Origin: a virus
Reading direction: 5' to 3' (one strand)
IMG/VR virus record: IMGVR_UViG_3300032896_000437
Location: 1 to 25,033 of that record
Length of the DNA stretch: 25,033 nt
A program made the position numbers and the translations under genes. The notes below the pieces were generated by a model. That model ran no database searches and was not told where the DNA came from. It saw only the letters and a program-made list of their open reading frames with translations. Shown here piece by piece: positions 1,684-22,167 of the stretch; position 1 is the stretch's first letter; every line of letters begins with the position of its first letter.

Positions 1684-1684
1684 C

Positions 1685-1832: not shown

Positions 1833-2004
1833 TCTGGGCTACGCAGCCGGCCCCCGCGCGGCATCCAGGCGAATGCCCCAGGCTCACCATCCCGGGCACA
1901 GGAGAGGCTGCCATGCTGCTGCTCGCCGCTACCGCTGAGACTCAGGGGAGCAGGCCGGGGGCAGCCGCGCAGGCCTGCAGCGCTCTGACGGCCTTTGACC
2001 TGGT

Positions 2005-2280: not shown

Positions 2281-2281
2281 C

Positions 2282-2599
2282 TCAGCCCCTCAGACCGTCC
2301 TGCATGGCCTCGGCGATCTGGTTGTCAAGATGCGTGCGAACGAACTCGTCGGCGGCTGACTGCAGCCCGGCATCAGGGTGCTCCACCTCGTGTGCCAGTT
2401 CCACATCGCTGCCGGTTGCCAGGAAGAGCCGGTGATAAGCCTGCATCCACACCAGGGCCTCCGCGGCGGCTTCGCAGAGGCCAAAGGCCAAGGCCTCGGT
2501 GTCGACGGTGATCGGGGGGAATTTCCCTTCCAGGGCATGTCGCATCGTCAGGAGTGCGGCTAGCCGCCCTTCGCGCTTGGCTTTGTCGTCGTCAGCCAC
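2282..2599 (-). CDS. Small acidic hypothetical protein
   Basis: A 105-residue, mostly helical and acidic protein starting with GTG at 2599 behind a GGGAGGG ribosome binding site. It has no recognisable motif. It is the last gene of the minus-strand block led by the phage tail genes, 45 bases after the tape measure stop, so it may belong to the same transcript. In siphoviruses this slot would hold a distal tail or minor tail protein, but this protein is far too short and unlike those, so the tail cluster appears to stop here. Confidence 0.6.
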   Translation of the reverse strand: MADDDKAKREGRLAALLTMRHALEGKFPPITVDTEALAFGLCEAAAEALVWMQAYHRLFLATGSDVELAHEVEHPDAGLQSAADEFVRTHLDNQIAEAMQDGLRG

Positions 2600-2644
2600 T
2601 CTGGATGTCCCTCCCGTGGGTGCCTAAAAGGTAGCCGCCGCGGC

Positions 2645-5600: not shown

Positions 5601-6103
5601 TTCGCCATCGCCTCGGCACCGATCCTGGCGCCGGCCGATGCACCTGAGGCGTTGAGAATCTCCATGGCGCCGGCGGCTTCGAGGGTCTTGTTCCGCAAGC
5701 TGTCCATCTCGTTGCCGTCTTCGGCAGCGAACGCGGCGATGTCGTCCAGCCCGGGCCCGCTGGCGACCAGGGCATCGAGCGCCGCCTCAGCCTCGCCGGC
5801 GTCGTCGCGGATCCGGGCCAGCCCTTCCGCTGCGGTCTGCGATTGCGCCGCGATGTCGTCCAGCCCGGTGCCGCTGTCCGACAGGGAATCGACGGCTTGT
5901 TCAGCTTCGGCCGCGGCGTCCCGGATCGAGTCGAGTTCTTCCGCGGCCTCCTCAGCGGCCTCGGCGGTCCCGTCGAGCTCGGCGAAGGCGTTGCGGATCC
6001 GGTCCAGCGCGTCGGCTGCCTCGGTGGCCTCGTCGGTGATCTGCTGGAGCGCCTCGACAAGATCGCTGGAGTCCCCGGTGAAGACTTCCTCGATGTCGGA
6101 CAC
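2645..6103 (-). CDS. Phage tail tape measure protein
   Basis: A 1152-residue protein expected to sit inside the tail tube, set its length and be ejected with the DNA. Residues about 1-150 are Ala/Glu-rich coiled coil with an internal repeat: residues 57-86 and 95-124 align, each ending in SG(T/P)GLDDIAA. A hydrophobic Gly/Ala-rich segment lies at about 522-572, as in many tape measure proteins. Near the C-terminus, the pattern of helix, Asp-Gly-Leu, then IHSPS or ISSPS occurs twice (around residues 950 and 1070), a hallmark of actinophage tape measures. At the usual 0.15 nm per residue it would give a tail of about 170 nm. The start is GTG at 6103, three bases after the gp10-like stop. The flanking tube, chaperone and baseplate genes of a normal siphovirus are absent. 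Confidence 0.9.
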   Translation of the reverse strand: MSDIEEVFTGDSSDLVEALQQITDEATEAADALDRIRNAFAELDGTAEAAEEAAEELDSIRDAAAEAEQAVDSLSDSGTGLDDIAAQSQTAAEGLARIRDDAGEAEAALDALVASGPGLDDIAAFAAEDGNEMDSLRNKTLEAAGAMEILNASGASAGARIGAEAMANRQSIGQYITDLQRAVAETETLQNAQAGLAASGYVNFDDLAEDEENAEVAASNYWDTLKSIRTQMLSMAAGESLVVGRSGLGWTLPGQGEPTQQLAQLLQEMEQTGTASLLQQFLSAGQAASTWETDLSGSSDAIGKANPLIESQAGVLDDVAAAGATFTANVRDELAAMQAFSDAWHAYDASGSWEDLVRLGQASQDLDTALSAASSSGEDFTQVFGGVDQATQDVAQGLLDSARAAGQYAFAQGAAAAGTTPFTTGIKLLDDAMAKAGSRFTSAGDAAGFLKVSLSDSEDIAKDARVALLALGASEQEAAAGANALANAQSAADAALGSGGGVGILSKLFGFAGGGGEGGFSVGGLLGNMAWFTGGAAAIMSVASEMGALVAGASAAITGIVPAVALAIPAFEELKNGYEEVTKAQAAYKAAAAKAGKDPTTANLDAEAKALKKVQDDYKSMGPAETGAITGIARLKSEYDSMAKAFEPDVFGIFNRGIRVAEELLPTFKPLAEQAAGGIDDLLDKAEKFFKIPKSDAGQKPGGAAGRLADHIHDIATPPDPTGWQKFLEKIKPDIKPAEEAIGEFGATVIGDWGKFIERFSPKDIQNAFHILGNLVNWWSTGWGRAISHAMNMWDDFSAAAKNVRNWVDDFNGALHDINNAVGTGLTGTYHNAEAILDNIRETIVRTGHDIEAAWDTSWHAVEHATDVARETLINIGHDIEHDWDTTWSHVVSYAEGIPGKIKHVFDGAASWLRSAGRNMIDGLINGMASLHGSLVSEAESLGKDAIHAAMSALGIHSPSAEFYDIGTKTVQGFVLGLKGGKSAVSALEDEIATASKQLGITGANAAYEAASQIDNGLAAGLRSELKTVDAEMNRVADELVNSLKRALRISSPSQATMEIGSQVVDGLVQGIDARQSAVSAAMGRLGNSALTGYLPNRSAGSSGAEPIVIHLVQDQPIVVGGKTLARVNQKYTLQHARRNTKSGYQLRGRGV

Positions 6104-6106
6104 GCC

Positions 6107-6646
6107 TCAGCCCCCGTCCAGCGCCTCAGTGACGAGCCGGTGCACAGCGTCCTTCGCCGCCGGCTCAACGCCGCCCGCCTTCGCCCAGTCGTGCGCCGGC
6201 CGCATGTAGGGCCTGGCTGGGAGGGTGACGTGCATCGCGAACCGGCGTTCCCCGTCCTGAATCCATGACAGGGAGTGACGCCACTTGTCGTCGTGTTCGC
6301 GGATGCCCCGGGCGGCGTGACCGAAGTGGGCGATGCCGCGCGCTGGCCCGGGGTGGGCGTGGATGGTGCCGCCGTGCTCCTGGATGGCCGCGTAGACGAT
6401 GTGCGGCCCGCATTTCGCTGTGGCGGTCACCCCGCCGGGAGCGGCCTCATCGACCGTCACCGAGTCCGACAGCGCCCCCGAACGCCGCGCCGGAGGCTGC
6501 CCGGGGGCCGACTCACCGTTACTGAGTTCCTTCAGGACGAAACGCCGGAACGACCGGGCTGCCGCGTTGATGCCGTCCGCCGCGCCCCGCTCGGCGACCG
6601 TGTCCGCTGCCTGCTGTGCGCGGCCGGCGAACTCGCGCACATCCAC
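6107..6646 (-). CDS. HK97 gp10-like head-tail/tail completion protein
   Basis: A 179-residue protein resembling HK97 gp10-type connector proteins, which sit at the head-tail junction or terminate the tail. GTG at 6646 was chosen because it is preceded by GGGAGG at good spacing and lies just after the stop of the upstream gene; longer versions would overlap that gene. Seen in the sequence are an N-terminal helix with conserved Arg/Lys, a central SGALSDSVTV segment, the motif VYAAIQEHGG and a C-terminal LPARPYMRPA followed by a helix. The YAxxxEHGG and RP(Y/F)(M/L)RPA motifs are typical of this family. It lies three bases upstream of the tape measure gene and is surely co-transcribed with it. 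Confidence 0.78.
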   Translation of the reverse strand: MDVREFAGRAQQAADTVAERGAADGINAAARSFRRFVLKELSNGESAPGQPPARRSGALSDSVTVDEAAPGGVTATAKCGPHIVYAAIQEHGGTIHAHPGPARGIAHFGHAARGIREHDDKWRHSLSWIQDGERRFAMHVTLPARPYMRPAHDWAKAGGVEPAAKDAVHRLVTEALDGG

Positions 6647-6659
6647 ACCCGGCCTCCCT

Positions 6660-7001
6660 TCACCCGGCCGCGACGGCGAACGCTGCGATGTCGACGATCG
6701 GCGAGGTCCCGGTGAGTGTCCACGCCAGCGCCAGCGGCCCGGGCTGCTGCACCTGGACACTGGCCTGCTGCACGCCGGTGCTGCTCTGCGACGGCAGCGT
6801 CAGGATCGGCTCCCACCCGGAGCCGCCCTCCTGCTGCAGGCTGACCGTGATGCCTGCGCCCGACGTCAGCCCAGTGACAGCGCAGAACAGCGTTACGGTG
6901 CCGGAGGACGGCAGGTTCAGCGGTTCGGTTATCCCGCTGGCGGACACACCGCAGCACAGGCCGGCCGCGGGCATCGGTGCGATCGCGAGGGGTGTTGTCA
7001 T
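6660..7001 (-). CDS. Small beta-rich phage-like protein
   Basis: A 113-residue protein with a composition of alternating Thr/Val/Ser and Gly, suggesting a beta-sandwich. It has no charged catalytic cluster. ATG at 7001 overlaps the preceding stop (ATGA) and has AAGGGA upstream. Its position, immediately before a gp10-like protein in a tail operon, would suit a neck or minor tail protein or a small decoration protein, but no family was recognised. It has two adjacent cysteines near residue 16 and no signal peptide. Confidence 0.7.
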   Translation of the reverse strand: MTTPLAIAPMPAAGLCCGVSASGITEPLNLPSSGTVTLFCAVTGLTSGAGITVSLQQEGGSGWEPILTLPSQSSTGVQQASVQVQQPGPLALAWTLTGTSPIVDIAAFAVAAG

Positions 7002-7351
7002 GGGGTCGTCCCTTCAGGTGGTGCGGCTGCGGCCGCGGCGGTCTCCCGCTGGGCGCTGACGACCTCAGCACCGGATACCGGCCCGGCGGGCGTTTCCCGC
7101 TGGCGGGTGATCGCCCGCCCGGCCAGGTACTCGAGCACGCGCCATGGCGACACCCGGAAGGGCCCGAGTTCGTACTCGAGATCGTGCACGAACCTCCGCA
7201 CCGCGCCCGCGTCGCCGTCGCGGATGTGCCCCTCGATGGCGACCGCCGCGAAGTGCTCGTGCGTGCCGATCGGCGACGGGTGGGCCGCGGGATCGACGCC
7301 GTGGCGCGGCTTCAGATGCGGCGCGTTGTTCACCCGGTCGCTGTCAGGCAT
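6998..7351 (-). CDS. Hypothetical protein of the tail operon
   Basis: A 117-residue protein. ATG at 7351 was chosen over an upstream in-frame start because GGAGGG precedes it and it overlaps the preceding stop by only eight bases. The middle section (RRFVHDLEYELGPFRVSPW) is amphipathic and the C-terminus is Ala-rich. The N-terminal part is His/Pro-rich. No known phage family is recognised. By gene order it could be a connector component, but that is inference from neighbours only. Confidence 0.65.
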   Translation of the reverse strand: MPDSDRVNNAPHLKPRHGVDPAAHPSPIGTHEHFAAVAIEGHIRDGDAGAVRRFVHDLEYELGPFRVSPWRVLEYLAGRAITRQRETPAGPVSGAEVVSAQRETAAAAAAPPEGTTP

Positions 7352-8003
7352 CGTCCCTCCACAGCGGACTCCGAAGGTCGGAAGCCTCGCCGACCAGGCG
7401 CAGCCTGGCGCCGAGATGCCGGCGCAAGTCATCAGGGGTGGCCTCGGCGAGCTGCCGCTCGTAGCCGGGCGGCCCGGCTGCCGCCTCGATCACCCGGCCG
7501 GCTGCCGCTGCGCTCTCGGTGACCGCGCCCCGCGGGCTGGCCCTGTGGAACGGGGAGTGCCCGGCCGAGCCAAGGGCTGAGGCAGCGACCACGGCCAGGT
7601 CGGACCGGCTGCCTTCGCGCAGCGAACGGCTGGCCGCGGCCGCGGTGAACTGCCCGGCGAGCTGGGCGCCCGCCGCGGTCTCGCGCTTGCCAGCCGCGGC
7701 CGCGACTCGCGCGGCCTTCTTCGCCCTCTTCATCTTCTTGACTTGCTTCTTGTGGATCTTCAGAGCGGCGATGACCGCCGGCGTGACCGCCTGGGCGCCA
7801 GCCTTGGCCTGCGCCGCGGAGGACACGTTCGGCAGCGTTGACGGCCGGGCACCTTCACTGACGCCGCGCCGCCACTCACGCCAGGTCGCTGTTCCCTCCG
7901 CGACCGCCACAGCGCGCCCGGCTGCCGGGTTGCGCTCGAACGCGGCGTTGATGAACACCTGCCGGTCGCGCATCTCTCGCGCGGTCAGCGTGGCTGTTCC
8001 CAT
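7344..8003 (-). CDS. Basic, Ala-rich hypothetical protein of the tail operon
   Basis: A 219-residue protein starting at ATG 8003, with AAGG upstream. The middle (about residues 80-105) is a strongly basic helix with KKQVKKMKRAKKAARV, flanked by Ala-rich helical segments. The C-terminal third carries YERQLAEATPDDLRRHLGARLRL. Such a lysine patch suggests nucleic-acid or capsid-surface binding, but no family is recognised. It is in the same coupled operon as the gp10-like and tape measure genes. Confidence 0.65.
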   Translation of the reverse strand: MGTATLTAREMRDRQVFINAAFERNPAAGRAVAVAEGTATWREWRRGVSEGARPSTLPNVSSAAQAKAGAQAVTPAVIAALKIHKKQVKKMKRAKKAARVAAAAGKRETAAGAQLAGQFTAAAASRSLREGSRSDLAVVAASALGSAGHSPFHRASPRGAVTESAAAAGRVIEAAAGPPGYERQLAEATPDDLRRHLGARLRLVGEASDLRSPLWRDDA

Positions 8004-8009
8004 GGTCCT

Positions 8010-8126
8010 TTATCCCTTCGTGGTTGCCGAGCCGGGCCGGCCGGGGCAGGCAAGGTCTTCGCGGTTGAAAGCACACCGCTCTCCGGCCTTCGCTCCACTG
8101 CCGGGCTGGACGGAGACCACCAGCAT
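8010..8126 (-). CDS. Possible very small protein (frame uncertain)
   Basis: A 38-residue frame beginning ATG at 8126 and stopping at 8010, seven bases before the next gene. It has G/C-rich third positions and two cysteines (RCAF and LACPG). No ribosome binding site is visible. Between 8127 and 8278 the coding signal instead sits in another frame, starting with a GTG that overlaps the stop of the upstream gene (GTGA). The region may hold one gene broken by an indel or two tiny overlapping genes. Confidence 0.3.
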   Translation of the reverse strand: MLVVSVQPGSGAKAGERCAFNREDLACPGRPGSATTKG

Positions 8127-8274
8127 TCGCACCCGGAGTGGCGACGTTGACCCTGGTCGGGATCCGGCTCGTCCTTGACACTGGCCCGGGCGCCGGCCTG
8201 CGACCGCAGGGCCGACCCGGTGCCCCTGCATCTGCCGCCGGGCACCCAGGCCAGGTTCGTGGTCATCGCCGCTG

Positions 8275-8946
8275 TCACCACGGCGATCGCTGGGTGGCGC
8301 CCCGGGCGCCAGCGGGCGGCTCCGCTGTCGTGATGACCGGCCGCGGCCGTGGTGGCTCCCGGGGGCCAGTCCACTTAACCAGCGCGCCGACTACGGGGTC
8401 CCCGCCGGGCTCGGCCAGCACGCTGGCGGTGTTCGCACCGGGCGGCCGTGTCGGAGCGGCGAGCTCGCCGGCCGTGACCCGGGCCGCGATCGCCTGGCGC
8501 TGTGCCGCGGCGACGGCCCGCTCAGCGTCCTGGGCCTGGCCGAACTCATCCCGCGCGGCCCGCAGGCACGCATACATGCGCGTGATGTGGTCGGCGACCT
8601 GGCTGTGAGCCAGCCGCTCTGCTGCGATCGCGTCGCCGAGGATCTGCTGCGCCCGGGCCCGCTGCTGCGCGAGGTCGTCAGCCCGGGTCTTCTCGGCCTG
8701 CTGCTGGGCGAGCTGCTGCTGCACCGACAGCAACGCCGCCACGGCGCCCTCAGCGATCAGCATCTGCTCCTGCGCCTCATCGAGCAGCGGCTTGAGCCGG
8801 CTGGCTTCGCGGTGGTCGGCGGCCGCGACAGCGGCGGTGTACCGGGCCGAGAGCTTGCCCGCGGCCTGGCGCTGCGATGCTTCGGCCTCACGGGCCTCCG
8901 CAATGCGGTCGTCCAGACTGCGCGGCGCCGGCGCGGTGATCGTCAT
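8275..8946 (-). CDS. Long coiled-coil protein, possible scaffold-like
   Basis: A 223-residue protein. Residues about 10-175 are almost continuous Ala/Gln/Glu/Arg-rich helix with heptad-like spacing (for example LLSVQQQLAQQQAEKTRADD), and the last 45 residues are Pro-rich and disordered. It heads the minus-strand tail operon and diverges from the HTH-terminase operon. Phage scaffolding proteins have this architecture, but no capsid gene is present for it to act on, so that role is only a guess. The start ATG at 8946 has no ribosome binding site. A TAGCGT box seven bases upstream suggests a leaderless transcript. Confidence 0.7.
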   Translation of the reverse strand: MTITAPAPRSLDDRIAEAREAEASQRQAAGKLSARYTAAVAAADHREASRLKPLLDEAQEQMLIAEGAVAALLSVQQQLAQQQAEKTRADDLAQQRARAQQILGDAIAAERLAHSQVADHITRMYACLRAARDEFGQAQDAERAVAAAQRQAIAARVTAGELAAPTRPPGANTASVLAEPGGDPVVGALVKWTGPREPPRPRPVITTAEPPAGARGATQRSPW

Positions 8947-9003
8947 GGAGTTAACGCTAGTAGTCTGGCGGCAGCCGCCTCTAAGGATGAGTTAGCAGGT
9001 TCG
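8947..9003. promoter_or_regulatory. Divergent promoter region with a 13-bp palindrome
   Basis: These 57 bases separate the minus-strand coiled-coil gene from the plus-strand HTH-terminase operon. On the minus strand TAGCGT (8957-8952) is placed for a leaderless start at 8946. On the plus strand TAGTCT (8961-8966) is a candidate -10. The palindrome GGCGGCAGCCGCC (8967-8979) lies just downstream of both and could be an operator controlling the two phage-like operons together. Confidence 0.4.
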
Positions 9004-9714
9004 ATGAGCAGCCAAGATCGCTACGTTGTCCCGGCCGGGTCCAAGGACGAAGCACAGGCCATCTACGACGCGCAGGAAATGCTGCAAGAAGCGTGGATGT
9101 CATGGATCTTGGAACGCGACGGCGACGCGATCACTGCCAGCTTTGCTCTGCAGAAGTGGCCGGACGTGACCGTGGAACTGAGCCCGTGCGGCCCGGCTCC
9201 CGTGATCGCGGGGGTATTCAGCGAGGACGGCACGCTCAGGCAGCTCCAGTTCGATGCTTCCTACCGGCCACGCGGTGTCCAGGCATCCGACCTGCGCCAT
9301 ATGCCAGCCGTCAGCAGCCTCAAGGCGTGGGAAGTAGCTGCACGCGAGTACGGGCGGCAGATACTCGCCGGCGTCCCCAAGGAGAGCATCGTCTTTGACA
9401 CCACCTCGCCGGCGGCGGCCCTCGAGTCGCTGTCGCGATCCGTCAGACGCAAGCCCGGCGCCCGTGCCCGGGCGGCAGCTGCCCACGAGGCGCTGCTGCG
9501 GCGGGTTGCCAGCGCGTACGAGGAAGCGGCTGGCAGCCGGGCTCCGCGCAAGGTAGTCGCTGAGCGCCTCGGCTACTCTGCCGCCCACGTGTCGCGGCTC
9601 CTCGCTGAGGCCCGCCGACCGCGGGACGGACGTCCTCCGCTGCTCGGCCCCGGGCGCGCCGGCCGGCCGCGTACCCGCCGGAGCACCGGTCACAGCGGGA
9701 TACTTCCGGCATGA
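9004..9714 (+). CDS. Helix-turn-helix protein upstream of the large terminase
   Basis: A 236-residue protein. ATG at 9004 is the best start, although only a weak ribosome binding site is seen; longer versions would run into the divergent gene. Residues 1-110 are a mixed alpha/beta domain of unknown function. Residues 150-205 are basic and helical, ending in a helix-turn-helix (RKVVAERLGYSAAHVSRLL). Its stop overlaps the terminase start (ATGA), so translation is coupled. Small terminases are DNA-binding HTH proteins located exactly here, so it may be a packaging-site recognition subunit. A regulator is equally possible, since similar HTH tails are common in actinomycete integrated elements. 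Confidence 0.65.
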   Translation: MSSQDRYVVPAGSKDEAQAIYDAQEMLQEAWMSWILERDGDAITASFALQKWPDVTVELSPCGPAPVIAGVFSEDGTLRQLQFDASYRPRGVQASDLRHMPAVSSLKAWEVAAREYGRQILAGVPKESIVFDTTSPAAALESLSRSVRRKPGARARAAAAHEALLRRVASAYEEAAGSRAPRKVVAERLGYSAAHVSRLLAEARRPRDGRPPLLGPGRAGRPRTRRSTGHSGILPA

Positions 9715-11303
9715 CCAGAGCATCATTCGCGGCCGCGCTGTCGACGGCGATCAACCCGCCCGAGGTCGACGTTTTCAAGCTGCTCGGCTATCAGCCAGCG
9801 TGCGTGCCCTATCTCGCCGGGCAGATCGAGGCGCCGTGCGGGCAGTGCGCCCAGGAGCAATTCGCTGCCGCCACCGAATACAGCGTCCTCATGGGCGGTG
9901 CGTCCGGAGGCGGCAAGTCCCTGTCAGCCCTGGCGTTCGCCCTGCGGGAATGCATCCGCCACCCCGGCCTGCGCGTCGGTGCGTTCCGCCGCTCCTACCC
10001 CGAGCTGCGCGAGTCCCTGCTCGCCGAGCTCGCCCAGCATTTCTCCTACGCCGAAGCGCTCGGCGCTTCGTGGAACGGCTCGGAGTATGAGTTGCGGTTC
10101 CCGAACGGGTCGCTGATCCTGTTCCGCTACGCGGAGACCTACCAGGACGCCACCCGCCGGCAAGGCGGCCAGTATCAGCTCCTGATCCTGGACGAGCGCA
10201 CTCTGTTCCCGCCCGACGTCGTCAGCTTCCTCGAGTCCCGCGTCCGCTCCGGCCGCGCCGACATCCCCGTTATCGGGTGCCGCAGCACCGCCAACCCCGG
10301 CGGACCCGGGCACCAGCACGTCAAACGCGACTTCATCGACGCCACGAACTACGGCCAGCGCGTCGTCACCGACCAGCGAGGCCGCACCATCCGCTTCATC
10401 CCCGCGAAGATCGCCGACAACCCGTTCATCAACCCCGAATACGCCGCCGACCTGCGCGCCCTCCCCGAGAAGCTCCGCCGGGCGTTCCTCGACGGCGACT
10501 GGTCGTCTTTCGCCGGGGCGATGTTCCCCGAGCTCAGCCGTGACCGACACGTCGTGCGGCCCTTCGCGCTCCCGTCGTCGTGGCGCCGCATCGCCGGGAT
10601 CGACTGGGGTTACACCGCGCCATGGGCCGTGATCTGGCTCGCGGAAGATGAAGATCATCGACTGTGGGCCTTTCGAGAATTGTACGAAACCCAGGTCGGC
10701 GAAGCCGACCAGGCGAAACGCATCCTCGCCGCCGAATGCGATGAGCAGGTCACCCGGTGGATGGACGACGCTGCCTGGGCCACCCGAGGCGACGCGAAGA
10801 GCGTCGCTCAGGTCTACCTGGACAACGGCTGCGCCGTCAGTCCGGCCGGCAAGGGCCCGGGCTCCCGCATCGCGGGCTGGCAGCGGATCCACTCCTACCT
10901 CGCCGAAGCACCAGCGTGTCCTTACCATCGCTCGCTCGGCTGGCCGTCGTGCCCGCGTCTGCACATGTTCAGCACCTGCGAGCATCTGTGGGCCGAGCTG
11001 TCATCCCTCCCGCATTCGACAGCCGGCAACCCTGAAGACGCCGACACCCGGGCACCCGACCACATCAGCGACGCGCTGCGCTATGCCACCGCGGCGCTGG
11101 GCACCGGCGCCCAGTTCGTCATCCTCGGTGACCCGGCCCCCGAACCAGGCTTCGGCACCCAAGGCCAGGAACTGCTCGCCGCCCTCGGGCCCGCGTATGG
11201 CGTGCGCCACGACCCCCTCGACCCATGGCACAACGCTGACCGGAGCGACGGCGACGAGGAGAGGCCACCGCCCGGCAGGACACAGCTATCACCGTTCACC
11301 TGA
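9711..11303 (+). CDS. terL: Phage terminase large subunit
   Basis: A 530-residue DNA-packaging motor and nuclease. The N-terminal ATPase has Walker A GGASGGGKS (62-70), Walker B LLILDE (157-162) and the coupling motif RSTANPGG (191-198). The RNase H-like nuclease has its first Asp in AGIDWGYTAPW (D298), an acidic pair around 352-353 and the final Asp in DHISDALRYA (450-459). Length and motif order are those of a complete, intact TerL. A Cys/His-rich stretch (residues 403-423, CPYH through STCEH) lies within the nuclease part and may be a lineage-specific metal-binding insertion. Start ATG overlaps the HTH gene. It is unusual that no portal gene follows. Confidence 0.92.
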   Translation: MTRASFAAALSTAINPPEVDVFKLLGYQPACVPYLAGQIEAPCGQCAQEQFAAATEYSVLMGGASGGGKSLSALAFALRECIRHPGLRVGAFRRSYPELRESLLAELAQHFSYAEALGASWNGSEYELRFPNGSLILFRYAETYQDATRRQGGQYQLLILDERTLFPPDVVSFLESRVRSGRADIPVIGCRSTANPGGPGHQHVKRDFIDATNYGQRVVTDQRGRTIRFIPAKIADNPFINPEYAADLRALPEKLRRAFLDGDWSSFAGAMFPELSRDRHVVRPFALPSSWRRIAGIDWGYTAPWAVIWLAEDEDHRLWAFRELYETQVGEADQAKRILAAECDEQVTRWMDDAAWATRGDAKSVAQVYLDNGCAVSPAGKGPGSRIAGWQRIHSYLAEAPACPYHRSLGWPSCPRLHMFSTCEHLWAELSSLPHSTAGNPEDADTRAPDHISDALRYATAALGTGAQFVILGDPAPEPGFGTQGQELLAALGPAYGVRHDPLDPWHNADRSDGDEERPPPGRTQLSPFT

Positions 11304-11348
11304 TCTGGCTGCCTGACGGACCACGCCCCACCATGGCAGGCTGCACAT

Positions 11349-11798
11349 ATGCCGCCTACTCCTCGTGACGACCAGAACGCAGTCCGGCTTCGCGACCTTC
11401 AGCGCCTGCAGGCACTCACCAGGCCATACATATCGGACAGCGCCGCGCCCATAGTTGATGTCTTGCCGCTCATGCCGGCCGCCGAGCGCGCGGAGGCCAG
11501 CGGCATCCTCGATCGCATCAGCGACCTCGGCGAGCCAGCAGACAAGCGCGCAGCGCGGCGCGAGATCCTCCTGGACCTCGCCGCGGCCGAGAGCTACCTG
11601 CAGGACGTCCTTGCCCGCGGGCAGCCAGAAATCCGCGACGGCCAGGTCGTCATCGACCCGGAAACCGGCAAGCCGCGCCGCGACGCCGCCATAGAACGGC
11701 GCGCCCATGAGGTACTCGCCGGTGTCGAACGCCTCCGCAGCAGGCTCACCGGGCTGCCCACCAACCACCCAGCCACGGGAGACGAAGAGCAACCGTGA
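11349..11798 (+). CDS. Hypothetical helical protein downstream of terminase
   Basis: A 149-residue, mainly helical acidic protein starting at ATG 11349. It lies 45 bases after the terminase stop, where a portal gene would be expected, but it is far too short and has no portal features. A segment RDGQVVIDPETGKPRRDA looks like a beta-hairpin between helices. Its stop overlaps the start of the next gene (GTGA). No family is recognised. Confidence 0.65.
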   Translation: MPPTPRDDQNAVRLRDLQRLQALTRPYISDSAAPIVDVLPLMPAAERAEASGILDRISDLGEPADKRAARREILLDLAAAESYLQDVLARGQPEIRDGQVVIDPETGKPRRDAAIERRAHEVLAGVERLRSRLTGLPTNHPATGDEEQP

Positions 11799-12178
11799 CC
11801 GGGCACCGCGAACCACCCGAGGACGCGGCAGAGATCCGCCCCGAGGTCGTCCAGGCCGTATTCAGCGCACTGACCGACATAGACCTCGCCAGGCTCGCAC
11901 CGCTCGAGGAAACAGGGATCACCCCAGCCGAGCGCAAGCAGGCCGAGGCGCTATTCACAGCGAGCCTCGAAGCCAGCCTCGGCCATCGCGAGCGCACGCT
12001 CCAGGCGATGCAGATCCTCATTGGCGAGCGCAACCTCTCCGGCGACCCCGCGTGGCCCCACCTGTTCGACAGACTCACCCCTGAGCGCGCAGAGCAACTC
12101 CGTGATCTGTACGACGCGCTGCCCGACGGCGCCCGCGCCGAATACGACCGCCGGTACGGCCGGCCAGGCGCCGTCTAG
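11795..12178 (+). CDS. Hypothetical helical protein
   Basis: A 127-residue protein with start GTG at 11795, coupled to the preceding gene. It is helical throughout, with RLTPERAEQLRDLYDALPDGARAEYDRRYG at its end. It ends convergently with the recombinase gene: the two stop codons overlap in a shared CTAG at 12175-12178. It is probably the last gene of the HTH-terminase operon. Function unknown. Confidence 0.65.
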   Translation: MTGHREPPEDAAEIRPEVVQAVFSALTDIDLARLAPLEETGITPAERKQAEALFTASLEASLGHRERTLQAMQILIGERNLSGDPAWPHLFDRLTPERAEQLRDLYDALPDGARAEYDRRYGRPGAV

Positions 12179-13092
12179 CGCCTGCGGGCCGGGTCGCGCT
12201 CGGCCTGGTGGCGCTGCAGCGCCTCCGCGCTCACCCGGGCGTACTTGGCCAGCGACCGCACCGAGGTGTGCCCGGAGCGCGCCATGAGCATCGGCGTGCT
12301 GGTGCCGGCCTCGGCGTCGTGGGTGAGCGCGGAGTGCCGCAACTGGTGCAGCGTGGCGCCGCCGGAGGCCTGCTTGAACAGCGCCTCGGCGTGGGTGTAG
12401 GACAGCCGGGCCCGGCCGCTCACCTGATCGATGTCGCCAGGAGGCAGTTCGACACGTGCCCTGCGGTCAGTCAGGAACAGCGGGCCCGAGGTGCGGCCCT
12501 TGAGCAGGCGGGGCAGCAGCCTGGCGGTGCCGGTCTGCCAGACGATGATGTCGATCGCGCCGCCCTTGCGCCGGACCCGGGCCCGCCGGTTGGGCAGGTC
12601 CAGGTCCTCGACGTCCAGGGCGAGCACCTCGGCCGAGCGGGCCGCGGTCTCGTAGAGCAGCCGCCAGAGAACGCGCTCGCGCAGGCTGATGTCCTCGCGG
12701 GTGAGCAGCTGGTCGACGTCGGCGCGGGAAAGGGCGCGGCTGCGGTCGGGCGGCAGGCTGCGCCGGCGCAGGCGCCGGGACGGGTCAGCACCAGCCCAGC
12801 CCTGCTCGGCCCACCACGTGGCGGCTGAGCGGAACGTGGCCAGGGTTGCGTTCCACGTCGCCGGGGAGCCGTCGCCCCACTGCGCCGTGAACCACGCGGC
12901 GAACGCATCCGGGTCGATCTGGCCGGGTGGCGCCGCGGCGCCGAACTCGGCCACGGCGGCGCGCAGCCGGCGGCTGTAGGCCCGGTACGTGTTGGCCTGG
13001 TCGCGCCGGCTCAGGGTCGCGAGGTAGGCCTCGGTGGCGTGCCCGAGGCTGGCGGACGTGCCCGCGGTGCTCAGCTGATGAACGGTCCCCAC
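12175..13092 (-). CDS. Tyrosine recombinase, compact Xer/Cre-like
   Basis: A 305-residue site-specific recombinase that cuts and rejoins DNA through a phosphotyrosine. The catalytic set is complete: R152 (TAARSAEVL), K176 (RRKGGAI), H249-x-x-R252-H253 (HQLRH), H275 (SGHTS) and Y284 (AKYARVS). An N-terminal SAM-like core-binding domain spans residues about 15-100. GTG at 13092 is chosen because AGGAGG sits just upstream; a longer ATG start at 13167 would translate through a copy of the repeat described at 13106. There is no arm-binding domain, so it is more like Xer/Cre resolvases than phage integrases. The adjacent 14-5-14 inverted repeat may be its site. It is distinct from the larger integrase at 22164. 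Confidence 0.88.
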   Translation of the reverse strand: MGTVHQLSTAGTSASLGHATEAYLATLSRRDQANTYRAYSRRLRAAVAEFGAAAPPGQIDPDAFAAWFTAQWGDGSPATWNATLATFRSAATWWAEQGWAGADPSRRLRRRSLPPDRSRALSRADVDQLLTREDISLRERVLWRLLYETAARSAEVLALDVEDLDLPNRRARVRRKGGAIDIIVWQTGTARLLPRLLKGRTSGPLFLTDRRARVELPPGDIDQVSGRARLSYTHAEALFKQASGGATLHQLRHSALTHDAEAGTSTPMLMARSGHTSVRSLAKYARVSAEALQRHQAERDPARRR

Positions 13093-13105
13093 GGCCGGCC
13101 TCCTG

Positions 13106-13205
13106 CTATCGCAGATAACGTGTGGGAGTCGGCCTGCGCGTGGCCCGGCGTCCTCCCTGGTCGGCACTCACGCTATCACAGATAATATGCGATTATCTGT
13201 GATAG
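13106..13205. repeat. Perfect 14-5-14 inverted repeat plus a third copy; candidate recombination site or operator
   Basis: CTATCACAGATAAT (13173-13186) is followed by a 5-base spacer (ATGCG) and its exact inverse (13192-13205). A third copy in the same orientation as the left arm, 12 of 14 identical, lies at 13106-13119, just before the recombinase ribosome binding site. Inverted 11-14 bp arms around a 5-8 base core are the layout of loxP and dif sites, and a recombinase gene is adjacent. Binding by the neighbouring ribbon-helix-helix protein is the other explanation. The AT-rich sequence stands out from its surroundings. Confidence 0.6.
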
Positions 13206-15140: not shown

Positions 15141-15614
15141 ATGGCTACCACCACCGCAGAGGTCCCTTTCTCCCAGCTTGTCCAGCAGCCCAGGGAGACC
15201 GTCGCCAAGCTCGAGGAGAGCCCGCGGCGGCAACTGCGCCTGGAGCGACGAGACGGCCGCGACCTGATCCTTGAATCAGCCGACCGGGCCGAGGCCAAGG
15301 ACGCTGCGCTGACCATGACCAGCCGGCTGTTCTTCTCCTTCGTCAAGAACGACAAAGGCGCCCGCGCACTGCTGCTCGCCCTGCCCGACGTATTCCCGTG
15401 GGTCCGCTACCTGCCTAAGAATGACGTCCGCGGCTTCCTAGTCGAGATCGTCGAGACCGTACGCGCGTGCGCTGACCTGGACAACCTGGCACCCCTGGTG
15501 CCAGTCGTGGCGGCGTGGCGCGACACCGCGGAGATCTACGCGGATCCCGATCTGCTGAAGGCCGCGACCACGCCGCTCGACGGCACCGACTACGGCGAAG
15601 TCCCGGAGTGCTAA
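15141..15614 (+). CDS. Phd-like antitoxin
   Basis: A 157-residue protein. The N-terminal 55 residues follow the Phd/YefM pattern of a short beta-helix DNA-binding unit (VPFSQLVQQPRETVAKLEES, then LRLERRDGRDLIL). The C-terminal part is a helical extension with DVFPWVRYLPKNDVRGFLVE and WRDTAEIYADPDLL, seen in actinomycete members annotated as prevent-host-death antitoxins. It would repress its own promoter and bind the toxin encoded immediately downstream. The stop TAA directly abuts the GTG of the next gene, a tight two-gene operon. Confidence 0.75.
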   Translation: MATTTAEVPFSQLVQQPRETVAKLEESPRRQLRLERRDGRDLILESADRAEAKDAALTMTSRLFFSFVKNDKGARALLLALPDVFPWVRYLPKNDVRGFLVEIVETVRACADLDNLAPLVPVVAAWRDTAEIYADPDLLKAATTPLDGTDYGEVPEC

Positions 15615-15965
15615 GTGAGCCCGAAGCGCCTTGACCGTGTCGCACCACCGCCCGTCGATGACGAATGGGACGTCAGGTTCGGCACGAGTGAGGCAGCTAA
15701 GGGCTGGGGGACCCTGTGCACGCACTCCGGGACGAACACGCGCGAGGCGTTCGAGCAGATGAGGGCCAATCCGCGGCCACCCGAAGACGCCACGCACTAC
15801 CAGCTGCGCGGCGCTCTCGCTACGCGCGCTTTCGGTGGCCGTCGGCTGGAGCAGTGGCAGATCAAGGTGAGTTCCAGTGGCCGCATCTGGTACCTGGTCG
15901 ACGACGAGAAGCACGCGGTCTGGGTGACCCGGGCAACCGCCGCGCATCCGAAAGAGACTGAGTGA
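15615..15965 (+). CDS. RelE/ParE-like toxin
   Basis: A 116-residue basic protein, probably a RelE/ParE-superfamily toxin acting on ribosome-bound mRNA or another cellular target. The visible pattern is helix (REAFEQMRANP), HYQLRGALATRAFGGRRLEQWQI, then SSGRIWYLVDDEKHAVWVT, the ending strand-turn-strand typical of this fold. It begins with GTG at 15615 directly after the antitoxin stop. Antitoxin-first order fits Phd-type systems. The pair could stabilise the mobile element. The target is unknown. Confidence 0.75.
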   Translation: MSPKRLDRVAPPPVDDEWDVRFGTSEAAKGWGTLCTHSGTNTREAFEQMRANPRPPEDATHYQLRGALATRAFGGRRLEQWQIKVSSSGRIWYLVDDEKHAVWVTRATAAHPKETE

Positions 15966-16682: not shown

Positions 16683-16859
16683 CAGTGCTCCCTGGTGGTG
16701 TCGGTCCGGCGCGCGAGATCGGTCAGCGCCGGAGCGCTGGGTGGCGGCCCGCTGCTGCGGGATCTCCCTGACGAGGTGCTCGAGTTCGGCGAACTCGCGC
16801 ATCCTGGCGGCTAGGCGCTCCCGGTCGGTGGCTGAGAGCAGGTCGGCGATCGCGGTCAT
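16683..16859 (-). other. Coding segment starting MTAIADLL, without its own stop
   Basis: ATG at 16859 overlaps the stop of the gene before it (ATGA) and opens a helical frame, MTAIADLLSATDRERLAARM and on through FAELEHLVREIPQQ. After about residue 42 the codon bias moves to another frame, which leads straight into the gene at 16681. This frame itself stays open to 16200 but with an Arg-rich shadow composition. Either a base has been gained or lost near 16740, or the gene ends in a third frame. The exact gene end is therefore uncertain. Confidence 0.35.
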
Positions 16860-16963
16860 GCCGACGCCGCGGCGTCGACCTCGCGCTGCCACTGCCGCCA
16901 CCTGCGCAGACTCGCGGCGAGACGCAGGCTCGCGGGCCCCAAGAGCTTGGGTTTTCGTGCCAT
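16856..16963 (-). CDS. Very small basic peptide
   Basis: A 35-residue peptide starting MARKPKLLGPASLRLAASL at ATG 16963, preceded by GAGGAG at eight bases. It is basic and helical with LRRWRQWQRE. Its stop overlaps the next start (ATGA). It is the first gene after the iteron array and heads the chain of small minus-strand genes. Function unknown. Confidence 0.45.
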   Translation of the reverse strand: MARKPKLLGPASLRLAASLRRWRQWQREVDAAASA

Positions 16964-17027
16964 GTGGGGGCTCCTCGTGATTGGTGTGGTGCGTCACGGC
17001 TATCTCCATGGGGCCGTATATGTGCGG

Positions 17028-17276
17028 AGAAGCGGTCGGAGCGGTCGCAGCGGTCGCAGCGCCGCGTTTATGCAGGTCATAAGCTCGGCATAGGGCGTGA
17101 TCTGGCGACCGCTTGTCATGGCGACCGGTCGCCTGGCGCCGAGAAGCGGTCGCGGCTGGAGGCGGGCGCGGCTGGAGAGAAGCGGTCGCCAGCGACCGGT
17201 GGATTTGGGAAGCGGTCGGCGCAAATATGGTCCCTGACCTGGCGCTGCGACCGCTGCGACCGCTCCGACCGCTTCT
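17028..17276. repeat. Iteron array in a 36-bp inverted repeat, candidate replication origin
   Basis: Bases 17028-17063 and 17241-17276 are perfect inverse copies 36 bases long, separated by 177 bases. Each arm holds three AGCGGTCG units on a 9-base period (plus 17031, 17040, 17049; minus 17248, 17257, 17266). The interval adds further copies (plus 17145, 17181, 17211; minus 17106) and the palindrome GCGACCGGTCGC at 17121. The array starts 51 bases beyond the 3' end of the ATPase gene. SaPI-type satellites place a two-sided iteron origin just 3' of their replication protein gene, so an origin is the first choice. A very large terminator or regulatory array is less likely. The whole 16964-17326 gap holds no other gene. 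Confidence 0.65.
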
Positions 17277-17326
17277 GGAGATATAGGGGCTGCTGTAGTA
17301 AGGGGCGCGTGCGCACACAGCATGGG

Positions 17327-19456
17327 TCACGGCCGGGTGTCTGTCTCGAAGCTGTGCACGGACATGTGCAGGTTGCGCCGGTCTTTCCTGCCCCCGAGGT
17401 CGTGGCGGGCGGTGAGGTGGCCTGGGTCGCATGTTGCGAGCAGGCCGCGGTCACGCAGGTGCCCGTGCAGGACCTTCTTGGCGATGCCGAGCTGGCCGCC
17501 GGACGTCTCCGCGAACCGGCGGGCTGCGCGGTAGGCGGCGTCGGGTTCGAGGTGCACGTCCTTGCCGTCGGTCCAGCCGATGAGCTCGCCCCGCGGCCGC
17601 ATCGCGATGTCGCCACCGGTGAGGTATTCCTCCCATCCCCACCGGATCGGGTCGGCGGGGCATCCGCCGTTGAGTGCGGCGATGTGCGCGCCGCCTGATG
17701 CGATCAGCGCGCTGAGGGATGTCAGGTAGACGGTGACCGGGTCGGCGTCGCGGCGGTAGCGGTCTTGGTCGGCGCCGACCTCACACAGTGCTTTCCACGC
17801 GCGTGTCCAGAGCCGCTCGTGCTCCTCGCTGGTGATCGCCTCGGCTGTCAGCGCGTAGGCGAGGAACTCTGACCAGCCGAGGGCGAGGCTGGCGACGTTG
17901 AGCGCGGTCCGGGGATGCTGGCCGTCCGCCCGGGCTTCGTCCCGCAGCCGGCCACGTTCGCCGGCCAGGTACGCGGGCAGGCTTCCGTCCGCGTCATACC
18001 TTGTGGCGAGGTGCCGGATGTAGCCGGCCATGGCGACGGCGTACTGCCCGTCCGTGGCCAGGCCTTGCGCCTTGGTCAGCTCGGCCCGTTTCACGTCGCC
18101 GGGCTTTACCTCGGCCAGGAACGACCGGGCGAGCAGGGACTCGATCGCTGGCGGCAGGTCCTCGGCCGATGCGAGGAGCTGCGCCTGGGGTGGCTTGTCG
18201 GGGCGGCGGGTTCCGTCCGGGCGCAGCCGCCCGCGGCCGGCGCGGTTGGCGCCGCCGCGGATGAGCTGGTCCGCCGCTGCGGCCCGTCGCTGAGCGTCGA
18301 TCTTGGTGATGTCCGGTGAGTAGTCGTCGACGGTGAACAGCGCGTCCTTGAGCGCGTGCGCTTGCATCACCAGGGAGTTCGCGGTGCTGGTCCAGTTCCC
18401 GGGCAGGTTGTAGGCGTCCATCGTCGGGCCGAAGTGCTGCTGGCCGAGGGCGGTCAGCGCGGTCTTGAACGTGCCGCTTCTGCCGTATTCCCAGACGGTG
18501 CAGTCGGGTGGCAGCGGGAGCGGAGCGCGGTATACGGCGGCCAGCAGCGGCACGATCACCGCGTCGGGTGCGACCGCCACCAGCGAAAGGCTCGACCGGA
18601 CAGCGTCGCGGACAGCGGTCGCAGCGGCCGGGGCGGGCAGTGCGTAGCCGCTGAGTGTGCCGAGGTCGACGGTCACCGTATCGTCGAGGCCGTCCGCGCC
18701 GAGAGCGCCCGAGGATGTCAGGTAGACGTGCCGGCCGCCGAGTTCGCGCCAGCCCGTGTGTGTGTACACGGTCTTGCACTCCGGCTCGGCCGCGGATTGG
18801 ACCGCGGCGCGCAGGTGATCGGCGATCGCCAGGCCTGGCATCACGAGCGCCGACGTCCCTGCGGCCTTCGCTGCCCACTGCTGCGGGCGGCCGAGCTGGT
18901 CCGGGGTGATCCGCACCTCGCCTGCCCGGCCATCTTTCGTGACGACCCGGAGCAGCCAGGTCAAGGTCCGTTCGGCACCGTCGTCGAGTGTGAGTTCCTC
19001 GGCGATCTCGCTGGTGAAGGTTGCCAGCATCGTGGGGACAGGGCCGCCTTGCGTTGGCCTGGACCACCAGGTGCAGCCACCCTCGGTGTAGTAAGCGCTC
19101 ATCCCATCCGCAGGCTGAGCCGCAGTGTCGGCTTCGGCGATGAGCTCATCGGCCTGTTCGCCCGCGGTTGGCGGATCCGCGTCGGTCAGCTCAGCGTGCA
19201 GCCGCAGGTCGTCCAGCACCTGGGCGATGTCGCCGCGGGACGGCACTCCGTCATCCGGGTACTTGGTCCGCCATGCTGCACGCATGTCCGCGCCCAGGTC
19301 CCGGCGGTCCTGTCCCTCGAAGAGGTAACGTCGGTCACCCCGGAGCAGGTACGGAAATGCGCTGGTTCGCCGCAGCTCGTACCGGTCCCCGGCGAGCTGG
19401 AGCAGCCGTTCGGACCGCGGCGGTGGCTTCTTGCCTCCCTCTTTCTGGTCGCTCAC
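17327..19456 (-). CDS. DUF927-like replication ATPase/helicase
   Basis: A 709-residue ATPase that probably unwinds the origin for the primase-polymerase encoded just upstream. Walker A is GRSGTFKT (325-332). Walker B is ALFTVDDYS with D377 and D378. LLASAEDLP (about 428-436) fits sensor I, and R444 in LLARSFLAE could be the arginine finger. A THTGWR motif at 232-237 and a beta-rich region before the P-loop are as in DUF927 proteins. The N-terminal 120 residues look like an accessory domain. Start GTG overlaps the prim-pol stop (GTGA). The iteron array lies directly 3'. The ATPase family is clear; helicase activity is inferred. Confidence 0.82.
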   Translation of the reverse strand: MSDQKEGGKKPPPRSERLLQLAGDRYELRRTSAFPYLLRGDRRYLFEGQDRRDLGADMRAAWRTKYPDDGVPSRGDIAQVLDDLRLHAELTDADPPTAGEQADELIAEADTAAQPADGMSAYYTEGGCTWWSRPTQGGPVPTMLATFTSEIAEELTLDDGAERTLTWLLRVVTKDGRAGEVRITPDQLGRPQQWAAKAAGTSALVMPGLAIADHLRAAVQSAAEPECKTVYTHTGWRELGGRHVYLTSSGALGADGLDDTVTVDLGTLSGYALPAPAAATAVRDAVRSSLSLVAVAPDAVIVPLLAAVYRAPLPLPPDCTVWEYGRSGTFKTALTALGQQHFGPTMDAYNLPGNWTSTANSLVMQAHALKDALFTVDDYSPDITKIDAQRRAAAADQLIRGGANRAGRGRLRPDGTRRPDKPPQAQLLASAEDLPPAIESLLARSFLAEVKPGDVKRAELTKAQGLATDGQYAVAMAGYIRHLATRYDADGSLPAYLAGERGRLRDEARADGQHPRTALNVASLALGWSEFLAYALTAEAITSEEHERLWTRAWKALCEVGADQDRYRRDADPVTVYLTSLSALIASGGAHIAALNGGCPADPIRWGWEEYLTGGDIAMRPRGELIGWTDGKDVHLEPDAAYRAARRFAETSGGQLGIAKKVLHGHLRDRGLLATCDPGHLTARHDLGGRKDRRNLHMSVHSFETDTRP

Positions 19457-20349
19457 GCCGCACCACCCCGCGGGTACTGGGCGGCAGCGCGGAAGCCGGA
19501 TGCGACGGTGCGGCGGACCTCCGGGGCAGGAAGGCCGATGCGCTCGCCAGCTCGCTGCAGCAGCGTCTCGACGCGGGCCGCGTCGATCGCGCCGCCGGCC
19601 GCGAGTTGGCCGAGGTTGAATGCCGCCAGGTGCAGGGAGGTGTTCCGCGTGCCCTCACCGGAGCTGAGCACGTTCTCGAGTTCGTACCGCAGCGCGGCCT
19701 GGACGTAACCGCCCGGATGGCGTCCCGGGGTGCGCGTCACCGGAGCCGGGCGGGCCGGCCGTTCGGGTTCGCTGAGGCGGCGCACCCAGAACTCGGGCAG
19801 CGGGGCTAGGGCGTCGCTGCAAGGGGTCAGCCACTTGTAGGGCCGGTGCGTCACCGGGTGGACCGACGGCGCCACCACGATGTACCCGCCGTCGGCCTTG
19901 ATGTCCACACCCGGGCCGCCCTTGCCGGCGCCTGAGGTGATCTTCCCGCCGGGGTGGGCGTAGACCAGGTGATACCCGCCGCGCCCCGTCACCGCCGCGA
20001 CCGTGCGGGGCAGCACACCATCGCTCACGAGCATCCTCATCGTCTCAATGCCGGGCGGGTCGACGTCGACCACCACAGCGCCTGAGACCGAACCCGTACG
20101 GATGGCGAGCAGCCCGCGCGGATGCAGCCGGATCATCGCAGCCAGACGGTCAGCGTCACTCGTCGCGCTATAGAAGCCGTGGCAGCACAGGCAGGTGCAC
20201 GACTCCATCTGCGCGGGCGTCTTGTGGTCGGCCTTGCACCGGTCGCAGTTGGCGACCGGTACCTTCGACGGGGACAAGACGAACGGGCGCCAGCCACGGG
20301 CGATGTAACAGAGCCCCGCCTGCAGCAGGTCATCTGCCCGGCGCGTCAT
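19453..20349 (-). CDS. Bifunctional primase-polymerase (AEP/prim-pol)
   Basis: A 298-residue archaeo-eukaryotic-type primase that can both prime and extend DNA, used by prim-pol plasmids, AICEs and satellites to start replication. ATG at 20349 overlaps the preceding stop (ATGA). Motif I is VVVDVDPPG with D95 and D97, motif II contains H127 (GGYHLVY), and motif III is GVDIKADGGYIVV with D149. A Cys-rich zinc insertion lies at residues 35-56 (CDRCK, CTCLCC). The C-terminal 100 residues (GTRNTSLHLAAFNLGQLAAGG onward) form a helical tail as in related prim-pols. All catalytic residues are present. Confidence 0.9.
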   Translation of the reverse strand: MTRRADDLLQAGLCYIARGWRPFVLSPSKVPVANCDRCKADHKTPAQMESCTCLCCHGFYSATSDADRLAAMIRLHPRGLLAIRTGSVSGAVVVDVDPPGIETMRMLVSDGVLPRTVAAVTGRGGYHLVYAHPGGKITSGAGKGGPGVDIKADGGYIVVAPSVHPVTHRPYKWLTPCSDALAPLPEFWVRRLSEPERPARPAPVTRTPGRHPGGYVQAALRYELENVLSSGEGTRNTSLHLAAFNLGQLAAGGAIDAARVETLLQRAGERIGLPAPEVRRTVASGFRAAAQYPRGGAA

Positions 20350-20561
20350 GCCGCACGCTCCGGTGCCGTGGCCCGCGAGGACAGTACGACGTAGCCCCAG
20401 CACAGGTCGACGCGGCGCTGGCGGTACAGCACGCCGACAACCGGCCGCAATTCGGCCATGGTGACTTTGAGATGGCTGGCCAGCGCTGCGTCGGTCAGCC
20501 CGATCTCACGGGCAAGGATCCCCTCGATCTGGCGCCCCAGCCGCCACTGCGCGGGGGTCAT
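20346..20561 (-). CDS. Small winged-helix-like DNA-binding protein
   Basis: A 71-residue protein from ATG 20561, coupled at both ends by ATGA overlaps. It reads as a small winged helix: helix RLGRQIEGILARE, then LTDAALASHLKVTMAELRPVV as the helix-turn-helix, and RVDLCWGYVVLS as the wing. Being placed before the primase-polymerase, it may bind the origin or regulate replication. The fold is judged from pattern only. Confidence 0.65.
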   Translation of the reverse strand: MTPAQWRLGRQIEGILAREIGLTDAALASHLKVTMAELRPVVGVLYRQRRVDLCWGYVVLSSRATAPERAA

Positions 20562-21032: not shown

Positions 21033-21275
21033 TCAGGCGACGTCGCCAGTTGCCGTGCGCTCGGCGGGCATCTCTACGCCGAGCGCCTCAAAGAGCGCGG
21101 TTCGCGGCACCCTGTATTTCAGGCCGACGCGCAGAACACGGCAGGGGAATTCGCCGGCCTGCGCCAGCTCAAACGCCTTGGTCCGGCCGAGGCCGAACGC
21201 GCGGCGGGCGGTGACCAGATCGACGCTCACGGGCAGTGCGAGCAACTCATCGAGCGACATTTCCAGGCCGATCAT
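21033..21275 (-). CDS. xis: Excisionase/AlpA-like HTH protein
   Basis: An 80-residue MerR-like winged-helix protein of the excisionase/AlpA type. DLVTARRAFGLGRTKAFELAQAGEFPCRVLRVG is the recognised pattern: helix-turn-helix, then the wing leading to a conserved Arg/Lys and KYRVPRTALFE. ATG at 21275 was chosen because GGAGG precedes it, over ATG at 21299. In such elements it binds attachment sites to direct excision by the integrase and may activate replication genes. It is divergent from the XRE regulator. Confidence 0.85.
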   Translation of the reverse strand: MIGLEMSLDELLALPVSVDLVTARRAFGLGRTKAFELAQAGEFPCRVLRVGLKYRVPRTALFEALGVEMPAERTATGDVA

Positions 21276-21420: not shown

Positions 21421-21426
21421 CGCGGG

Positions 21427-22167
21427 GTGAGCGACGCTGAGCCGCGCAGCGACGCGGGCCTGCCAGCCCGCGTGGTCACGCTGAACCAGCTGGTCGGCTA
21501 CAACATGCGATGGTTCCGGCAGGCTGCAGGCATCACGCAGGAGGAACTAGGCCGCCGCCTGGGCGGGTGGAGCAAAGTCGTCGTATCGGCCGCCGAGCGC
21601 TCCTGGGACGGGCAGCGTGTCAGGAAGTTCGACGCTGACGAGATGACCCGGATCGCGAGCGCTCTGGGTATCCCAGTCATCGCGCTGCTGCTGCCGCCCG
21701 TAGACGCCGACACCGCCGTGGACTACGACTTCGATGTCGGTGCTAACGGCCTGATCGCCATGGAAGAGGTGCTCCGCGTGGTGCTGCCGGAGTACCAAGG
21801 CGGCACCCCAGCCAGCGATGCTTTCATCGGCCGCGTGATCCAGCTGGGCGCGGACTGGTTCATCCGCCAAGGGGATGACTTCGTGCTCGAGGCCAGGCGC
21901 GCAGTAGAGGAGACCTTGAGCGAAACCGGCGCCCAGAGCCTGAAGGGCGAGATCCCTCTGCTGCTGGAGCCGATTGTCCAGGCTCGGAAGGACCTGCAGC
22001 GCCGTGTCACGGACCTGCGGGCATTCGAGCGCGAGTACCGACTCAGGCTCATCAAGTACCACGATGAGGCGCTCCGCGAGCTGCTCGCCGGGGTGGAAGA
22101 CCCAGACACCCTCCCGGCCGGCGAGGCACCCCCGGAGGACAGGCCCGCAAAAGGTGGCGATCAGTGA
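21427..22167 (+). CDS. XRE-family regulator, probable maintenance repressor
   Basis: A 246-residue protein. Residues about 20-75 are a Cro/C1-type helix-turn-helix (MRWFRQAAGITQEELGRRLG, then WSKVVVSAAERS, and MTRIASALGIPVIALLLPP). The remaining 170 residues are acidic and helical with VLRVVLPEY and a coiled segment around VQARKDLQRRVTDLRAFEREY, perhaps for dimerisation or sensing an inducer. GTG at 21427 is used because the promoter boxes predict a leaderless start there. It is divergent from xis and overlaps the integrase start (GTGA). Position and orientation match the master repressor (Stl-like) of phage satellites or the regulator of AICEs. Confidence 0.8.
   Translation: MSDAEPRSDAGLPARVVTLNQLVGYNMRWFRQAAGITQEELGRRLGGWSKVVVSAAERSWDGQRVRKFDADEMTRIASALGIPVIALLLPPVDADTAVDYDFDVGANGLIAMEEVLRVVLPEYQGGTPASDAFIGRVIQLGADWFIRQGDDFVLEARRAVEETLSETGAQSLKGEIPLLLEPIVQARKDLQRRVTDLRAFEREYRLRLIKYHDEALRELLAGVEDPDTLPAGEAPPEDRPAKGGDQ

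Follow-up and report, generated by a model that had tools for sequence, protein, structure and literature searches.

In SaPIs, the origin follows rep directly, is made of iterons and is read by the C-terminal domain of Rep; Rep reportedly binds these iterons, apparently as two hexamers (PMC7581432). The DUF927 protein Cch is related to SaPIbov1 Rep (PMC7581432). In PICI origins, two iteron sets lie 3' of rep around an AT-rich region, and these origins support plasmid replication (PMC6092414). Gram-positive PICIs carry int and the repressor gene in one direction and xis, pri, rep and ori in the other (PMC6092414). The organisation of the PICI origin has been stated to be common to no other known bacterial replicon (PMC6092414). 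Here we describe a repeat array in a 25-kb linear IMG/VR record of 69% GC, analysed over its whole length of 25,033 nucleotides (the window). With a probability of about 0.8, we read the array as a replication origin at which the initiator encoded next to it would bind. It would serve an integrating mobile element whose high-GC host is probably an actinobacterium.

Architecture of the array

The array (17028–17276) is framed by a perfect inverted repeat. The left arm (17028–17063, plus strand) and the right arm (17241–17276, minus strand) are 36 nt each, 100% complementary and separated by 177 nt. The unit AGCGGTCG occurs ten times within 17031–17273 (243 bp), on the plus strand at 17031, 17040, 17049, 17145, 17181 and 17211 and on the minus strand at 17106, 17248, 17257 and 17266. 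Three of these units lie in each arm on a 9-bp period, and the arm units point inward, forming two convergent three-unit sets. The core (17064–17240, 177 bp) holds the four other exact units together with three one-mismatch units, ACCGGTCG, at 17122 (minus), 17124 (plus) and 17193 (minus). The first two of these overlap and make up the GCGACCGGTCGC palindrome (17121–17132). An earlier sequence-only reading had claimed the perfect repeat, the ten units and the additional units and palindrome in the center, and all of these are borne out.

The array is far beyond chance. The expectation for AGCGGTCG is 2.9 ± 1.5 copies per 25 kb, and the commonest 8-mer reaches at most 4 copies in 500 dinucleotide shuffles of 16801–17500. 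A single copy lies outside the array in the 25-kb window, at 18614 within the ATPase gene. At this place 22 bp (18614–18635) are 86% like two array units (AGCGGTCGCAGCGGCCGGGGCG), a likeness that GC-rich coding DNA may produce by chance. A small MITE-like transposable element with 36-bp terminal inverted repeats could also explain two perfect, terminal-like repeats that enclose 177 bp. We reject this explanation, as there is no flanking target-site duplication, the array is single copy in the record, no DNA match is found elsewhere in plasmids and phages, and the arms are built of iterated units.

The symmetry picks up again beyond the arms, with CTATCTCCA to the left (17000–17008) and TGGAGATATAG to the right (17276–17286) at an offset of about 19 bp. 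The AT content of the array is 30% against 31% for the window, and the 177-bp core shows no AT enrichment; AT patches sit outside the arms only, flanking them. Beside the left arm, an AT-leaning patch (17000–17024, 52% GC) contains CTATCTCCA, whose inverted form is found in the right flank. On the rep side of the right arm lie the least stable 30 bp of the region (17272–17301, top 0.4% of the window), a candidate unwinding patch. The least stable 60 bp at the array rank at 2.8% of the window and are likewise located in the flank. The sequence-only reading had also suggested a GC-skew check, and the skew makes no sharp switch at the array.

That the core has no AT-rich unwinding region counts against the origin reading. 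The same want of a clear melting region in the core would suit a site that assists replication or acts in incompatibility or partition, of the kind of P4 crr or of a set of copy-control iterons; replication would then start at another place. P4 indeed requires a second iteron site, crr. We consider such a locus improbable here, because the window contains no other iteron cluster (the next best 8-mer has 4 copies) and none of the window proteins searched was recognised as parA/parB-like.

Gene setting

A gap of 50 bp separates the right arm from the stop codon of the ATPase gene, and the array is directly 3' of this gene, as had been claimed. The array is intergenic, since it has the ATPase stop (17327) on one side and a 35-aa ORF (16856–16963, minus strand; an ORF only) on the other; this is the first small ORF beyond the array and is on the same strand as rep. 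The ATPase gene (17327–19456, minus) encodes a 709-aa DUF927/MCM-like protein, the putative replication initiator and helicase. It overlaps by 4 bp with the gene for a Prim-Pol (PF09250, E = 9.6e-33; 19453–20403, minus), and prim-pol and ATPase are separate (split) genes of one operon. On the same strand follow a small protein of 71 aa from the ATG at 20561 (20346–20561), a possible winged helix with a weak TFIIE_alpha match only, and an excisionase-like (Xis-like) HTH_17 protein of 80 aa (21033–21275), the first gene of the replication side. An HTH_3 regulator gene (21424–22167, plus; likely start near 21424) is divergent from the replication genes and adjoins a tyrosine integrase gene with a profile match to PF00589 (22164–23600, plus). 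The gene order is int-HTH and then, divergently, xis-like, prim-pol, rep and array, where the Xis-like match is below the Pfam cut-off.

An array between two same-strand genes might also be an operator or enhancer through which the HTH regulator, the small winged-helix protein or the ATPase controls the small genes beyond it. Two convergent binding clusters can serve as a looping operator, and initiators often autoregulate from iterons. However, the downstream ORFs are tiny, 10–13 units are excessive for this purpose, and no promoter-like match is found in the region by a search that covers actinobacterial promoters poorly. We regard an operator as unlikely.

Elsewhere the record encodes terminase large subunit (TerL), tape-measure, neck and FtsK-like proteins and a second integrase. 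Within 1–13167, TerL and the FtsK-like gene are on the plus strand, and the tape measure, neck protein and second tyrosine integrase are on the minus strand. With strands in such conflict, the record may be a junction of two elements or a rearranged prophage, and the whole element may be a satellite, a prophage or an AICE. Two adjacent small genes at 15141–15965 are toxin-antitoxin-like by size and arrangement and have no family match. An integrase, a replication gene and an FtsK/SpoIIIE-like type are all in the record; a direct-repeat search for an att site gave nothing convincing, and no tRNA is found in the record. The host is probably an actinobacterium, judging from the GC content and from the ATPase relatives on plasmids, every one of them actinobacterial.

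Predicted fold of the initiator

By its structure model, the ATPase is a DUF927/MCM-like initiator helicase. The best PDB matches in Foldseek are SaPIbov1 Rep (8tch, E = 1.4e-12) and then SCCmec Cch (5dgk, 5e-12). The confidence of the model is moderate, with a mean pLDDT of 66 and a core at 80–95. In an alignment with ten DUF927-like phage proteins, most of which carry an N-terminal primase-type extension, the Walker motifs GRSGTFKT and FTVDD of the ATPase are in register with those of its DUF927 relatives. The window ATPase itself has no direct match to PF06048 (DUF927), while its relative L027 is above the cut-off (28.8 vs 22.6 bits).

A winged-helix-like domain is predicted at the C-terminus, at about residues 620–700. 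When the C-terminal 149 residues are modelled alone, 8tch is again the first match, weakly (E = 0.015, prob 0.99), and the next is an accessory DNA-binding protein of the pCW3 relaxosome, also weak (E about 0.02). The likeliest binder of AGCGGTCG is the ATPase's own predicted C-terminal winged helix rather than the separate small winged-helix protein.

Arrays at the 3' end of rep in prim-pol loci

We collected 80 prim-pol loci from IMG/VR, 67 of which include the full rep ORF and 500 bp or more beyond its end; these form 48 independent groups. An array was defined as at least 5 copies of one 8-mer within 400 bp. Such a cluster starts between −123 and +69 bp from the rep stop in 19 of the 48 groups (+54 in the window), where 1.9 groups are expected under uniform placement (p = 3e-16). 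None of 960 shuffled regions has one. All 19 clusters are of mixed orientation. Mixed clusters occur only 6 times elsewhere in the same loci and 7 times in 890 kb of unrelated viral control loci. Across these relatives the position of the array tracks rep and not a promoter, which argues against an operator. The window array has the most copies in the comparison (10), and the iteron sequence varies from element to element, as expected for initiator-specific sites. The search for the array in other prim-pol elements, as the sequence-only reading had proposed, recovers its layout and place, but these elements do not share the sequence of the repeat.

The arrays also coincide with unstable DNA. 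The 60 bp of lowest stability in the entire locus fall inside the array or within 150 bp of it in 14 of the 19; over all groups they lie at the rep 3' end in 24 of 48, where 3.8 are expected. This is a prediction of an origin and not of an operator or a terminator, and the coincidence further disfavors an accessory locus. A melting region as weak as that of the window is seen in only 3 of the 19 comparison arrays. Folded as RNA, the window region is much more stable than shuffled sequence (z = −11), as would be a structured RNA or a terminator of the ATPase operon made from the 36-bp stem. This fold is, however, a trivial consequence of the inverted repeat; there is no U-tract terminator in the array and no Rfam match. 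In addition, exact inverted repeats in the relatives' arrays are only 9–20 bp, against 36 bp in the window, so the stem is not conserved while the iteron arrays are. An RNA element or terminator is very unlikely.

The helicase partners in the array-bearing loci are of VapE-like, AAA_25, DUF3987 and D5 types. The survey thus bears on the claim that this organisation belongs to PICIs only (PMC6092414), as rep-3' arrays recur with all these helicases. Mixed-orientation arrays at rep 3' ends, mostly with AT-rich cores, are seen in L146, L150, L161, L167, L183, L189, L193 and others. At least three contigs with a rep-3' array also encode TerL and an HK97-type capsid gene and could be capsid-forming PICIs. 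The rep-3' arrays are widespread in IMG/VR contigs, where they provide ready candidate origins for uncharacterised elements. On the other side, 26 of the 48 groups have no array even at a relaxed threshold, which counts against the origin reading.

Individual relatives

Only one prim-pol locus, L141, has the helicase type of the window (28% over 579 aa). Its array, lying over and after the rep stop, consists of six TGAACAG on the plus strand, a stretch of 83% AT and three reversed copies on the minus strand, convergent as in the window. The closest prim-pol relative, L011/L137 (57% prim-pol identity), has no array at the rep 3' end. The sequence-only reading had held that absence of the array in close relatives with the same prim-pol genes would speak against an origin. 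Taken literally this is the case for L011, but by sequence inspection its helicase is D5-type, unlike that of the window, and its replication genes are therefore not the same. No array lies 3' of the gene in eleven relatives with a fused DUF927-TOPRIM protein (27–31%). Both L011/L137 and these eleven relatives count against the origin reading.

In actinobacterial plasmids with a DUF927-like Rep, the iterons are instead upstream of rep, a further point against it. Two related circular plasmids, pCPRO01 (L008:3470–3575) and pXCEL01 (L010:3510–3606), have multi-copy iteron sets, CGATTCCC and TCGTTTCC respectively, upstream of the large DUF927-like Rep gene; these sets are likely origins. Taken together with L011, the plasmids suggest that the array travels with the initiator and not with the primase alone.

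An exact search of IMG/VR for the array (AGCGGTCGNAGCGGTCGNAGCGGTCG) gave no match, DNA similarity against plasmids and phages gave nothing beyond chance for the array, and scans of genome contigs with the ATPase and with the prim-pol pair gave no relatives. A two-unit pattern search returned 98 contigs, mostly chance coding matches. That the exact array is in no other element searched is also against the origin reading.

Several other loci carry similar repeats. An unrelated 35.5-kb viral contig (L082:1703–1913) has nine copies of AAGCGGTC in both orientations, within or beside a gene just before a P-loop gene; it shares the core motif of the window, possibly by convergence. Repeats of CAAGATGGC type lie just 5' of DUF927-TOPRIM-like replication genes in L131 (4019–4205) and L127 (4007–4204), each enclosed by a short inverted pair; they could be either RNA elements or iterons. 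L214 (6109–11431) encodes a 60% identical integrase, a similar HTH regulator and a DUF3987 replication gene, and it has no comparable array. Between L214 and the window, the replication module appears to have been swapped behind a conserved int-HTH pair.

Proposed mechanism

From the sequence, position and gene order of the array, the initiator fold and the recurrence in relatives, we infer how the array would be bound and unwound, the direction of copying and its use in vivo. The 709-aa DUF927/MCM-like protein would act as a self-loading initiator helicase, with its C-terminal winged-helix domain binding the AGCGGTCG iterons. The inward-facing three-unit sets of the arms would load two oppositely oriented helicase hexamers, and the extra units of the core may aid this loading. 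The 3+3 arrangement of the arms suits two-hexamer binding as described for SaPI Rep. The DNA would open beside the arms at the AT patches, or it would be forced open between the hexamers. The separate Prim-Pol would prime synthesis, and copying would probably follow excision of the element by the integrase and the Xis-like protein.

With its core lacking AT-rich DNA, the array would test whether a pair of MCM-like hexamers is able to open DNA that has no such region. The array is also a defined, cloneable candidate origin of about 300 bp plus two genes, from a high-GC host and with an initiator predicted to have a solved fold (that of SaPIbov1 Rep). We tentatively propose, as an idea somewhat more doubtful than not, that the array is a SaPI/PICI-type origin in a GC-rich form, its AT-rich core replaced by a long perfect inverted repeat with inner iterons, so that opening must take place at the flanks or be forced by the two helicases, and that rep-3' iteron arrays are general to prim-pol replicons with many helicases and are not a PICI hallmark.

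Comparison with known systems

Prim-Pol AICEs of actinomycetes of the SLP1 type (SCO4617-SCO4618) resemble the element in having an integrase and a separate Prim-Pol with a second replication gene (PMC3218068), and an FtsK/SpoIIIE-like gene is also present in the window record. Unlike in AICEs, no tRNA att site is found in the window, and FtsK is at the far end, on the other side of phage genes. No DUF927-type helicase is among those reported for AICEs in the available part of PMC3218068.

SCCmec Cch shares the DUF927 helicase family and the initiator fold, and the short direct repeats bound by Cch2 follow closely after its own gene (PMC7581432). However, SCCmec modules have no Prim-Pol (the Cch2 type has CCPol-MP), and the Cch2 site has only three iterons.

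The IMG/VR element L141 has the same primase and helicase families and a convergent two-sided array at the rep 3' end. It differs from the window in its fused Prim-Pol-DUF927 Rep, its iteron, its strongly AT-rich core and its lower GC.

SaPI and PICI origins have an AT-rich region between the iteron sets, whereas the core of the window is 30% AT. The window further differs from the SaPIbov1 module in its 69% GC, in having units within the core as well and in its 36-bp perfect inverted repeat, and from classical PICIs in that the record has TerL and tape-measure genes. Judged from its sequence, the array would work like a SaPI origin, yet we do not file the element as a PICI, because the AT-rich core is missing. 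Like SaPI and PICI origins, the array lies immediately 3' of the initiator gene, and it has two sets of short iterons, here three convergent units per arm. The module also matches that of SaPIbov1 and PICIs in its primase gene, MCM-like Rep and 3' array, with int and regulator divergent from xis-pri-rep-ori (PMC6092414, PMC7581432). The initiator fold, the gene order, the recurrence in 19 of 48 groups and the L141 array all support the parallel with SaPI origins that the sequence-only reading had drawn, and the array is probably a variant of the SaPI/PICI origin type.
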